From Bacteroidota bacterium (lineage in GTDB: Bacteria; Bacteroidota; Bacteroidia; Chitinophagales; Chitinophagaceae): 64,000 nucleotides of DNA. Below the pieces are notes generated by a model that ran no database searches, was not told where the DNA came from, and worked only from the letters and a program-made list of their open reading frames with translations. Position numbers and translations under genes: made by a program. The stretch spans positions 1-64,000 of the forward strand of contig SYEV01000049.1 in assembly GCA_005800655.1 (NCBI GenBank), in the 5' to 3' direction. Of the stretch, positions 6,200 to 62,895 are shown one piece after another; positions within the stretch are counted from its first letter, which is position 1, and the number at the start of each line of letters is the position of its first letter.

Positions 6200-7081
6200 T
6201 TAGTCATGTATAACCATATCATATAAATGATGGATTAGCCCATCCGCTAGTCCTATTTTCGGTACATGAATTTCTGTAACTGCTGCCCACTTGCATATTG
6301 CGTTATAAATAGTTAATGCAGGTACAATAACTTCAGCCCGATCTTCTTTAATCGTATATTTTTTCATTCTTTCATCTATAGCGAGTGGCTCCATTTCCTT
6401 ATAAATATCTTTCAAAGTTTCATAGGATATTGATTTACCTGCTTTTGCTCCGCTAATTGAAAATAGTTTATTGATATTGCCTCCCGACCCAATCCCAATG
6501 ATATTTTCGTATTTTTTTGAAAGGTCCTTTAAGGTTTCCTTCATTTCATCCCAAGTTTCGTCCTTGACCTTTTTTGTAAGAATACGAACAGTGCCAATAT
6601 TAAATGATTTTTGCAGAATTATATTGGATTTGTGATATAAAGTAAGCTCGGTACTTCCACCACCTACATCAATGTATAAATAACTCTTATCGTTATCTAA
6701 CATTTCTGCAATATGATTTTCGTATATTATTTCTGCTTCTAATTCACCAGTGATTACCTCAATCTCAATACTGGTTTCAGATTTTATTTCTTTTATTATT
6801 TCTTTGGCATTTTCAGCATCACGCATGGCACTTGTTGCACAAGCCATATAGTGATCAACTTCGTATACTTTCATTAAGTTGTTAAAAGCCTTGATGGTAT
6901 TAATCAGCATCTTCTTTTTTTGTCCACCAATATGCCCTTTTTCAAAAACGTCAAACCCTAATCGAACTGGGATTCTTAAAAGGTTCAATTTATTAAATTC
7001 TGTGGCTTTCCCTTTTTTTATTACTTCACAAATGAGTAATCTGACCGCGTTACTACCAATATCTATTGCTGCAAGTATCAA
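6200..7081 (-). CDS. ppx: Ppx/GppA exopolyphosphatase family
   Basis: AIDIGSNAVRLLICEV, YIDVGGGSTELTLY, GIGSGGNINKL; adjacent to ppk1. Confidence 0.85.
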   Translation of the reverse strand: MILAAIDIGSNAVRLLICEVIKKGKATEFNKLNLLRIPVRLGFDVFEKGHIGGQKKKMLINTIKAFNNLMKVYEVDHYMACATSAMRDAENAKEIIKEIKSETSIEIEVITGELEAEIIYENHIAEMLDNDKSYLYIDVGGGSTELTLYHKSNIILQKSFNIGTVRILTKKVKDETWDEMKETLKDLSKKYENIIGIGSGGNINKLFSISGAKAGKSISYETLKDIYKEMEPLAIDERMKKYTIKEDRAEVIVPALTIYNAICKWAAVTEIHVPKIGLADGLIHHLYDMVIHD

Positions 7082-7087
7082 AGTATT

Positions 7088-7618
7088 TTATTTTTTACCA
7101 ATTAAGTAGTTGTAAGTAGCTACCTGTGATTTGCAATGTTTTTTACCAACGGAAGATACATAATTATTGCCTAAATTTTCATCCAAAATTCTGGCTTTTT
7201 GATTGTCTTTCAATTGAATATTGATGATTTCAACCAATTCTTTTTTTAATTTTACATCTAAAATTGGTGCAGCAGCTTCAATTCGATGATCTAGATTACG
7301 TACCATCCAGTCGGCACTTGAAATGTATACTTTTTCATTTCCTTTATTGTGAAAAATCATTACCCTGGCATGTTCTAAATATTGGTCTACAATACTTATG
7401 GCATTTAATTTATTTTTTAATTTTTCACTACCTTTTTTCAATGTTAATATGCCTCGAATAATTAAATGTACTTCCACACCCGCTTTGGTTGCCTTGTATA
7501 AATGATCAATGAGTGTGTGGTCACTGATTGAATTTGATTTGATAATTATTTTAGCAACCCTTCCTTGTTTCGCATGCTTTATCTCATTTTCAATTAATTG
7601 GATAATTGAATTGCGCAT
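7088..7618 (-). CDS. ppk1: PPK1 C-terminal domain fragment
   Basis: VEVHLIIRGILTLK, ISIVDQYLEHARVMIFHNKGNEKVYISSADWMVRNLDHRIE match the PPK1 C-terminal catalytic domain. Confidence 0.8.
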   Translation of the reverse strand: MRNSIIQLIENEIKHAKQGRVAKIIIKSNSISDHTLIDHLYKATKAGVEVHLIIRGILTLKKGSEKLKNKLNAISIVDQYLEHARVMIFHNKGNEKVYISSADWMVRNLDHRIEAAAPILDVKLKKELVEIINIQLKDNQKARILDENLGNNYVSSVGKKHCKSQVATYNYLIGKK

Positions 7619-7675
7619 ATTGATGGGAGAAATGAGTAAGTTTCTTGTTTTGCCAATAGGCTTATCTCCTAATTG

Positions 7676-9151
7676 TCAAGTTTCTAGATAAGTGAAAACC
7701 TTGTTTACTTCTATTAATAAGGGCCTGGAAGCGGTTAATAAACAATGATCAGCATAAACCCTTGCTGTTTTTTCATTTAAATTTCCAGTGCTTATGAAAC
7801 CATATTGTAGTAGCTTTTTTTCCACCCTTTTTTGTATCACACAAATTTTAGCGTGCACTTTTACATTAGGAATACCTACTAAAACCTTTACACCTTCTTC
7901 TTCCATTAATGTTTTCCACTCCAAATTTGCTTCTTCGTCAAATCTTGCTTTTAATTCTAAAAACACGGTAACTTTTTTCCCATTACGCGCTGCGTTGATT
8001 AAAGCGTTGATCACCTTTGAATTGCTAGCCAAACGATAAGCAGTTATTTTGATGGACTCTACCGCATCGTCCATAGCGGCCTCCCTTAACATATCAATGA
8101 CTGGATCAAAACTGTGGTAAGGAAAATGTAACAAAACATCTTTCTGTAATATTACTTCTGAAACCTGATATTTATTTCTAAAGGATGGATGGATAAAAGG
8201 TTTAGGACGTTCCGCTTTTTCCACGAGAACATCTGGAAAATCCATGAAATGTCTAAAATTATGAATATGCCCACCTGGTATGATACTGCTTTTTCGAGTT
8301 AAATGTAGTTTTTGAATTAAAAAATCAAGTAGTTCTGCATTCATCTCCTTATCATATACAAAACGGACGGGCTTTCCTTTTCGTCTGTTTTTAATTCCTT
8401 TAGAAATTTTTTCTACAAAATTCAATCCAACTTCTTGGTCTAAATCAATTTCAGTATCCTTGGTTATTTTAAATACATGGGCTTCAAATTTATTAAACTT
8501 GAAGTGTGAAAATATAATGGGTAAATTATACTTCACAATATCTTCTAATAAAATGATTGATTTTGTAGCACCTGTTGATGGTAAAATAACGAATCTGCCT
8601 ATGGATTTAGAGGGAATTTCAATTAATGAAAACTTTTCATGATATGCATCCATCTTATTTTTCATTACAATCGCCAAATACAAACTCTTATCTCTTAAAT
8701 AGGGAAGCTCTGGTAAATTTTCAATCATTAAAGGAATAATGTATGGGCGCACTACATTGTCAAAATAATCTCTGACAAATTCCTTTTGTACGGCATTTAA
8801 TTTTCGCTCATTAATAATTAATACTTTTCTTTTTATTAATTCTTTATTAATGTTCCCCCAAATGCGTGCAAATTCACTTTGTTGTTTTAAAACGACTCTT
8901 TGAATTTCATCGAGTATTAGTTGTGGTGATTCAAGAATATCAATATTGGTATTCTTCTTTTTATCAACAAATTCAAGCATTCTTTTTAAGGTGGCTACCC
9001 GTACCCTGAAAAATTCGTCTAAATTATTTGAAAAAATACCTAAAAATCTAATTCTATCCTTTAAGGTTACACTTGGATCATTGGCTTCCTGTAAAACTCT
9101 TGCATTAAAGCTTAGCCAGCTAATATCTCTAGGTATAAACTCATGCTTCAT
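7676..9151 (-). CDS. ppk1: PPK1 N-terminal fragment, ends at in-frame TGA
   Basis: RDISWLSFNARVLQEA, SNNLDEFFRVRVATL, VKVHAKICVIQKR, ISTGNLNEKTARVYADHCLLTA. The listed ORF begins at 9190; the internal start is preferred. Confidence 0.8.
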   Translation of the reverse strand: MKHEFIPRDISWLSFNARVLQEANDPSVTLKDRIRFLGIFSNNLDEFFRVRVATLKRMLEFVDKKKNTNIDILESPQLILDEIQRVVLKQQSEFARIWGNINKELIKRKVLIINERKLNAVQKEFVRDYFDNVVRPYIIPLMIENLPELPYLRDKSLYLAIVMKNKMDAYHEKFSLIEIPSKSIGRFVILPSTGATKSIILLEDIVKYNLPIIFSHFKFNKFEAHVFKITKDTEIDLDQEVGLNFVEKISKGIKNRRKGKPVRFVYDKEMNAELLDFLIQKLHLTRKSSIIPGGHIHNFRHFMDFPDVLVEKAERPKPFIHPSFRNKYQVSEVILQKDVLLHFPYHSFDPVIDMLREAAMDDAVESIKITAYRLASNSKVINALINAARNGKKVTVFLELKARFDEEANLEWKTLMEEEGVKVLVGIPNVKVHAKICVIQKRVEKKLLQYGFISTGNLNEKTARVYADHCLLTASRPLLIEVNKVFTYLET

Positions 9152-9229
9152 AATGTATACAAATTTGTAGTGCGAATTTAGTTCATTCAAGATTAAGTAA
9201 TATTCTGTTCACTATTTCTTAATACTATG

Positions 9230-10139: not shown

Positions 10140-11141
10140 ATGAAAATATTTTACGCAATTCAAGGGACGGGAAATGGTCATTTAAGTAGGGCTGAACAAT
10201 TGTATCCTTACTTACAAAAATACGGAGAGGTTGATTTTTTTTTAAGTGGATCAAATTCTCAATTAAATACGCGAATCCCAATTAAGTACAAAAGTCAGGG
10301 ACTTAGTTTGCATTACAAACATACCGGTGGGCTGGATTATACCAATATTGCAAAATCTATTTCTTTTAAACTATACAAAGATGCCAAGACTTTGCCTATT
10401 GATCATTATGACTTAATCATCAATGACTTTGAATTTATTACTTCGCTCGCTTGCGGGATTAAGAGAAAAAAAAGTATTCAATTTGGCCACCAAGCAAGTT
10501 TTCAGAGTAAATTAACTCCTAGGGCTAAAACAATCAATCCCATTGGGAAATTGGTTTTAGAAAACTTTGTCAGAAGTACCTCCTTCCTTGGTCTTCATTT
10601 TGAATCCTATGATGATCAAATTTATAACCCAATCATTAAGGATGAAATTATTGAAGCACGCAAAATAGATGAAGGACACATCACTGTTTATTTGCCACAA
10701 TATACTATTGCATATGTTAGTCCATTTTTACATGCGCAATCACTATTTCATTTTGAGGTATTTACAAAGGAAGTTACGGAGGTGACTCATTCAAAAAACA
10801 TTACTTTTTTTCCAATTAGTAACATTGCATTTACCAATAGCTTAATAAGCTGCCATGCTATTATTACTGCTGGCGGCTTTGAAACACCTGCGGAAGCAAT
10901 GTATTTGAATAAAAAGCTGTTAAGTATTCCTATCTTAAATCATTTTGAACAAGAATGTAATGCAGCGGCTTTAAATAAAATGGGTGTAAAAGTGTTAAAA
11001 AAATTAGACCAACATTTTGGGGAAAATTTCAAAATCTGGATCAACCAAGACAATTCCGTAAAAATTTCCTTAACCCATTCTACCAAGGATATTGTGGAGG
11101 TATTAATGAATAATTCATTAGCAAAAACGCAAAACACCTGA
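10140..11141 (+). CDS. GT28/MurG-like glycosyltransferase family protein
   Basis: FYAIQGTGNGHLSRAEQLYPYL N-terminus; AIITAGGFETPAEAMYLNKKLLSIPILNHFEQECNA C-terminal motif. Confidence 0.78.
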   Translation: MKIFYAIQGTGNGHLSRAEQLYPYLQKYGEVDFFLSGSNSQLNTRIPIKYKSQGLSLHYKHTGGLDYTNIAKSISFKLYKDAKTLPIDHYDLIINDFEFITSLACGIKRKKSIQFGHQASFQSKLTPRAKTINPIGKLVLENFVRSTSFLGLHFESYDDQIYNPIIKDEIIEARKIDEGHITVYLPQYTIAYVSPFLHAQSLFHFEVFTKEVTEVTHSKNITFFPISNIAFTNSLISCHAIITAGGFETPAEAMYLNKKLLSIPILNHFEQECNAAALNKMGVKVLKKLDQHFGENFKIWINQDNSVKISLTHSTKDIVEVLMNNSLAKTQNT

Positions 11142-62424: not shown

Positions 62425-62895
62425 ATGGCAGGCGTTAAATCCTATATTTTTATTTTACTTGTTTTATTAATAACAAGCTGCGAGCCGATTCAATTATATG
62501 AACAAACGACTACTTATTCTACACATGAATGGTCTAGCAAGCAGGTAAATACTTACCAATTTAATATTTCGGACACCAATGCCTTATATAAAATTTATTT
62601 TGTGATAAGACATCATAATGCGTATCATTATAAAAATATTTGGTTGCAGGTGAGCACAAAGTCACCTTCAGATTCAGCAATAACGCAGACACTTAATTTG
62701 CAATTAGCCGATGATCAAAAAGGTTGGTTAGGTGTAGGTATGGATGATATTTTTGACCAACGTATTCCAATCAATGCAACACCTACTAAATTAAAGCTAG
62801 GTATATACAATTTTAGTATGCAACATACGATGAGAGAAGATCCTTTATTGGGTATACTGGCTACTGGCTTACGTGTTGAAAAAGTGCATTTATGA
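62425..62895 (+). CDS. gldH: Gliding motility lipoprotein GldH
   Basis: Lipobox LLITSC; YKIYFVIRHHNAYHYKNIWLQV; ATG 62425 preferred. Confidence 0.8.
   Translation: MAGVKSYIFILLVLLITSCEPIQLYEQTTTYSTHEWSSKQVNTYQFNISDTNALYKIYFVIRHHNAYHYKNIWLQVSTKSPSDSAITQTLNLQLADDQKGWLGVGMDDIFDQRIPINATPTKLKLGIYNFSMQHTMREDPLLGILATGLRVEKVHL

Follow-up and report, generated by a model that had tools for sequence, protein, structure and literature searches.

A single in-frame TGA in place of a tryptophan codon in an otherwise intact ppk1 gene of a Chitinophagaceae bacterium

The window analyzed here, i.e., the whole stretch of 64,000 nucleotides at positions 1 to 64,000 of contig SYEV01000049.1 (assembly GCA_005800655.1, Bacteroidota bacterium), contains a gene for polyphosphate kinase 1, ppk1, whose reading frame is interrupted by one in-frame TGA. 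It is very probable that this TGA goes back to a single private base change from TGG, while the remainder of the gene is intact and under selection. Such a change would be a nonsense mutation that arose very recently in the population that was sampled, or else the consensus of the metagenome-assembled genome (MAG) is in error at this base. Overall, the mutation has about an even chance, and the error a somewhat smaller one. The lesion is most likely an ordinary one, affecting a single base of a conserved gene and being either recent or artefactual. As either of the two it matters little, apart from being a warning against annotating a split ppk1. The host assembly, from a freshwater Sediminibacterium-like bacterium, comprises 1.9 Mb in 116 contigs, is 88% complete and contains the window within its contig C32. 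The nearest named relatives are MAGs of Chitinophagaceae and Sediminibacterium, several of which are titled with lake names.

The ppk1 Gene and Its Interruption

Translation of the minus strand between 7060 and 9250 revealed that the ppk1 frame is broken only once, by the TGA at 7678-7676, and that it carries no other lesion, which confirms the preliminary description of a single in-frame TGA without frameshift or second stop. It is owing to this codon alone that the gene does not have the uninterrupted frame of a PPK1. The Pfam domains PP_kinase_N, PP_kinase and PP_kinase_C_1 are found upstream of the TGA and PP_kinase_C downstream of it, all of them well over cut-off, and the domain order N, middle, C1, C2 is kept across both pieces according to Pfam and NCBIfam. 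Moreover, the NCBIfam model TIGR03705 (673 positions) is almost completely covered, by the first piece from position 2 to 484 and by the second from 491 to 672, so that the flanks are indeed intact as had been described. Two long pieces in the same frame that cover nearly the whole family model are far beyond chance.

The histidine of the VHAK motif is residue 433 (7855-7853) and that of the EHARV motif is residue 594 (7372-7370). Both align with conserved histidines of the E. coli PPK (1xdo), and the TGA at residue 492 separates them, in agreement with the earlier statement that they lie on opposite sides of the stop. The TGA is positioned in the linker between the catalytic domains C1 and C2, which in the alignment with 1xdo is poorly aligned, with Pro or a gap in the respective column, and it does not fall among the catalytic residues. 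Thus, the gene shares with the PPK1 family (PF13089, PF02503, PF17941, PF13090; TIGR03705; E. coli PPK, 1xdo/1xdp) the four domains, both histidines and the ppx neighbor, and differs from it in the single TGA between C1 and C2. The extent of the gene has to be revised, however. A start at 9190 with 700 codons had been proposed, but an in-frame TAA separates the TTG at 9190 from the ATG at 9151 in five of the six close relatives, and therefore the ATG is probably the start (Table 1).

Table 1. Features of the ppk1 region in the window.
Feature	Position	Strand	Remarks
ppk1, polyphosphate kinase 1	7088..9151	minus	687 codons, one of them the in-frame TGA; begins probably with ATG 9151-9149 and ends with TAA 7090-7088
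Domains N, middle and C1 with the histidine of VHAK (7855-7853)	7679..9151	minus	491 codons; Pfam
In-frame TGA, residue 492	7676..7678	minus	all 28 relatives have Trp here; the codon is TGG in the six MAGs closest to this one
C2 domain with the histidine of EHARV (7372-7370)	7091..7675	minus	195 codons; Pfam
ATG proposed as restart	7616..7618	minus	conserved internal Met of intact relatives
Intact Ppx/GppA-family exopolyphosphatase gene	6200..7081	minus	directly downstream of ppk1; same neighbor in many relatives

Origin of the TGA Codon

The preliminary description had proposed an alignment with PPK1 of close relatives as a check and had suggested GGA as the source codon. In this alignment the column of the TGA is occupied by Trp in all 28 compared relatives and never by Cys, and the codon is TGG in all six nearest MAGs, so that GGA proved wrong and the change is a TGG to TGA substitution private to this genome. 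A residue other than Trp occurs at this position in L030, a more distant relative included in a wider alignment. As in a nonsense allele, the sense codon of the relatives is only one base away from TGA. Pairwise dN/dS values against the six nearest relatives range from 0.03 to 0.05 upstream of the TGA and from 0.02 to 0.05 downstream, which is the same range as among the intact relatives. This shows purifying selection on both parts of ppk1 without decay on either side, and hence the TGA is probably either too young for decay to have set in or a consensus error.

None of the relatives compared has a split ppk1. Stops found in the ppk1 of G025 and G022 were dismissed, as they are located at codons 3 and 8 of the matched frame, ahead of the probable start and in another column. 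With one private point change, intact flanks and selection on both sides, the gene resembles recent nonsense alleles and young bacterial pseudogenes, with the difference that it is represented by one MAG only, so that an assembly error is possible as well. Both a recent nonsense substitution and a sequencing error had been considered from the beginning, and both fit these data, which do not separate the one from the other; only the source codon suggested for the former has to be replaced.

Further Lesions in the Assembly

A scan for stops flanked on both sides by coding sequence covered about 1.25 Mb of the 1.9 Mb genome, and the number of further lesions is therefore a lower bound. Besides ppk1, two more clear premature stops were found, one in ctaD and one in a gene for a LuxR-type response regulator. 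The gene ctaD for cytochrome c oxidase subunit I (C22, L112 15153) has a premature TGA in place of a Gly that 19 relatives have without exception, and four codons ahead of it an invariant Val is changed to Glu. Because of these two oddities within five codons the ctaD TGA looks like a local consensus error, which lowers the trust in single bases of the assembly, including those of ppk1. As ctaD has a single match in this genome, a real stop at this position would be severe. In the gene of the LuxR-type response regulator (C34, L102 15975) the premature TGA replaces a Trp that is encoded by TGG in 11 of 11 relatives. Furthermore, comparison with the congener G033 revealed that a gene for a small Cys-rich protein on contig C1 is shifted out of frame by one base close to its start (L113 ~2915-2950).

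The single-base lesions in ctaD (TGA and Val to Glu) and on contig C1 support the explanation of the ppk1 stop as a recent mutation or consensus error. Counting against it, each of the three premature stops is a TGA, for which a share of about 0.25 would be expected, and two of the three replace Trp (expected share 0.03-0.13), which is above what is usual for random nonsense mutations, a comparison made post hoc and with n = 3. No comparable premature stops were seen in about 1.18 Mb of the relatives, a difference that is too small to mean much.

Two peculiarities of the assembly concern other loci. In the whole genome only 10 tRNA genes were found, all of them on the minus strand of their contigs, perhaps as an effect of assembly or binning. 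The contig C71 (L237 172-1080) has an ORF that is Arg-rich near its end, unlike the rest of the AT-rich genome, and may be a contamination.

Decoding of UGA and Alternative Explanations

The use of stop codons was counted over about 1.25 Mb of the genome, where 996 non-overlapping ORFs have 100 codons or more; 44 of them end in TGA, 772 in TAA and 180 in TAG. Extension of the TGA-ending ORFs to the next stop is mostly short, and one terminal TGA belongs to four bases that are shared with the following gene (window 62892-62895). In this genome UGA is a genuine stop but a rare one, the least used of the three, as it is in the congener G033. Within the window, the ORF 10140-11141 ends in TGA (11139-11141), where the relative G025 has a Cys codon followed by about five more residues.

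A reassignment of UGA to Trp could be assumed from two TGAs at Trp columns and from the fact that prfB, encoding release factor 2 (RF2), was not found in this genome. However, about 40 other ORFs terminate with TGA, on which grounds this explanation was rejected and is extremely improbable. Moreover, Trp is encoded by TGG at about 1.26% of all codons, as opposed to only two TGAs seen at Trp columns, and one of the premature TGAs replaces Gly. The gene prfB is above cut-off in 54 of the 61 genomes searched, but here it is absent along with its neighbors: the prfB stretch of a congener together with two neighboring genes gave only a short match to the prfA gene of this genome. As nusG is missing too, with no match above cut-off in this genome, these absences point to gaps in the bin, and a missing RF2 was discarded as the cause. 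An insertion of selenocysteine has nothing in its favor except that the codon is UGA. With Trp and never Cys in the column of all 28 relatives and a position in an inter-domain linker instead of a redox site, it is extremely improbable as well. The idea of a functional two-piece enzyme, in which the C2 domain would be translated separately from the ATG at 7618 and assemble with the first part, was based on the position of the TGA between C1 and C2 and on the in-frame ATG 19 codons after it. This ATG turned out to be the inherited internal Met of an NMR/xMR motif that is common to the intact relatives. It is residue 20 of the tail, whereas the Pfam match of C2 begins at tail residue 13, so that a restart would lose the first residues of C2. 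Since the 19 codons from the stop to the ATG are still conserved as coding sequence and no relative has a split ppk1, the two-piece enzyme is not supported and is very unlikely.

Leaky termination, which had also been proposed, gains some plausibility from the tRNA-Trp of congeners and from Trp being the lost residue. In this case a near-cognate tRNA-Trp(CCA) would read UGA as Trp often enough for part of the PPK1 to be made at full length and with its ancestral residue. A change from TGG to TGA would then be only mildly harmful in this lineage and could persist. The lost residue is Trp not only in ppk1 but also in the LuxR-type regulator (TGG in 11/11 relatives), and no stop is used less often in this genome than UGA. 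In G004, G012 and G033, C27 and U43 of the tRNA-Trp(CCA) are unpaired, and the tRNA also has G28.U42 and U11-A24, with position numbers according to our own reading of the cloverleaf. An unpinned tRNA-Trp(CCA) is reported to increase UGA readthrough in E. coli, and genomes with such a tRNA are reported to tend towards lower UGA use (PMC13092985). A24 in tRNA-Trp is the state of the Hirsh suppressor (PMC11805395), and of the three stops UGA is the one most prone to leak in E. coli, with Trp as the favored insertion (PMC11126739). On the other hand, no readthrough product is known, the tRNA-Trp gene of this genome itself was not found, and the intact congeners with the same tRNA show no such TGAs in about 1.18 Mb. 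In addition, the TGA in ctaD replaces Gly, which an insertion of Trp would not restore, and low RF2 can be a simpler reason for a rare UGA in AT-rich genomes (PMC4989110). Readthrough at the ppk1 UGA is therefore unlikely as an explanation. It is slightly less likely still that in this Sediminibacterium-like lineage a tRNA-Trp with unpaired 27-43 and U11-A24 makes UGA ambiguous, i.e., a weak stop that is partly read as Trp, with UGA being shunned as terminator and TGG to TGA changes being tolerated in ppk1 and the LuxR-type regulator, which would be an early natural step to UGA reassignment in a free-living bacterium. The case shares with known UGA readthrough by tRNA-Trp(CCA) variants (Hirsh A24; 4-bp anticodon stem, PMC13092985) the U11-A24 and unpaired 27-43 of the congener tRNA-Trp, the rarity of UGA and Trp as lost residue, but differs in that UGA is still a stop here and that the tRNA features are known from congeners only. 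Should UGA be decoded as Trp to a useful extent, this would be a free-living bacterial lineage for direct measurement of ambiguous UGA decoding.

Consequences for Polyphosphate Synthesis

The preferred explanation is that of a recent nonsense mutation or consensus error. If the change is real, ribosomes would stop at the ppk1 UGA and release a protein of 491 residues that lacks C2 and its conserved histidine. Judged from the architecture of PPK1, the activity of such a truncated protein should be lost or very low, and polyphosphate synthesis would be lost or cut to what readthrough permits. Neither a second ppk1 nor a ppk2 was found in this 88%-complete assembly, and a search of a plasmid collection gave short and weak matches only. 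A literature search on ppk1 with premature stops and on stop errors in MAGs yielded nothing useful. No ppk1 and no ppx were detected in G009, a genome of the same genus with a completeness of 97%, which suggests a joint loss of the polyphosphate gene pair. Therefore, the loss of ppk1 seems to be survivable, and the gene dispensable, in this genus.
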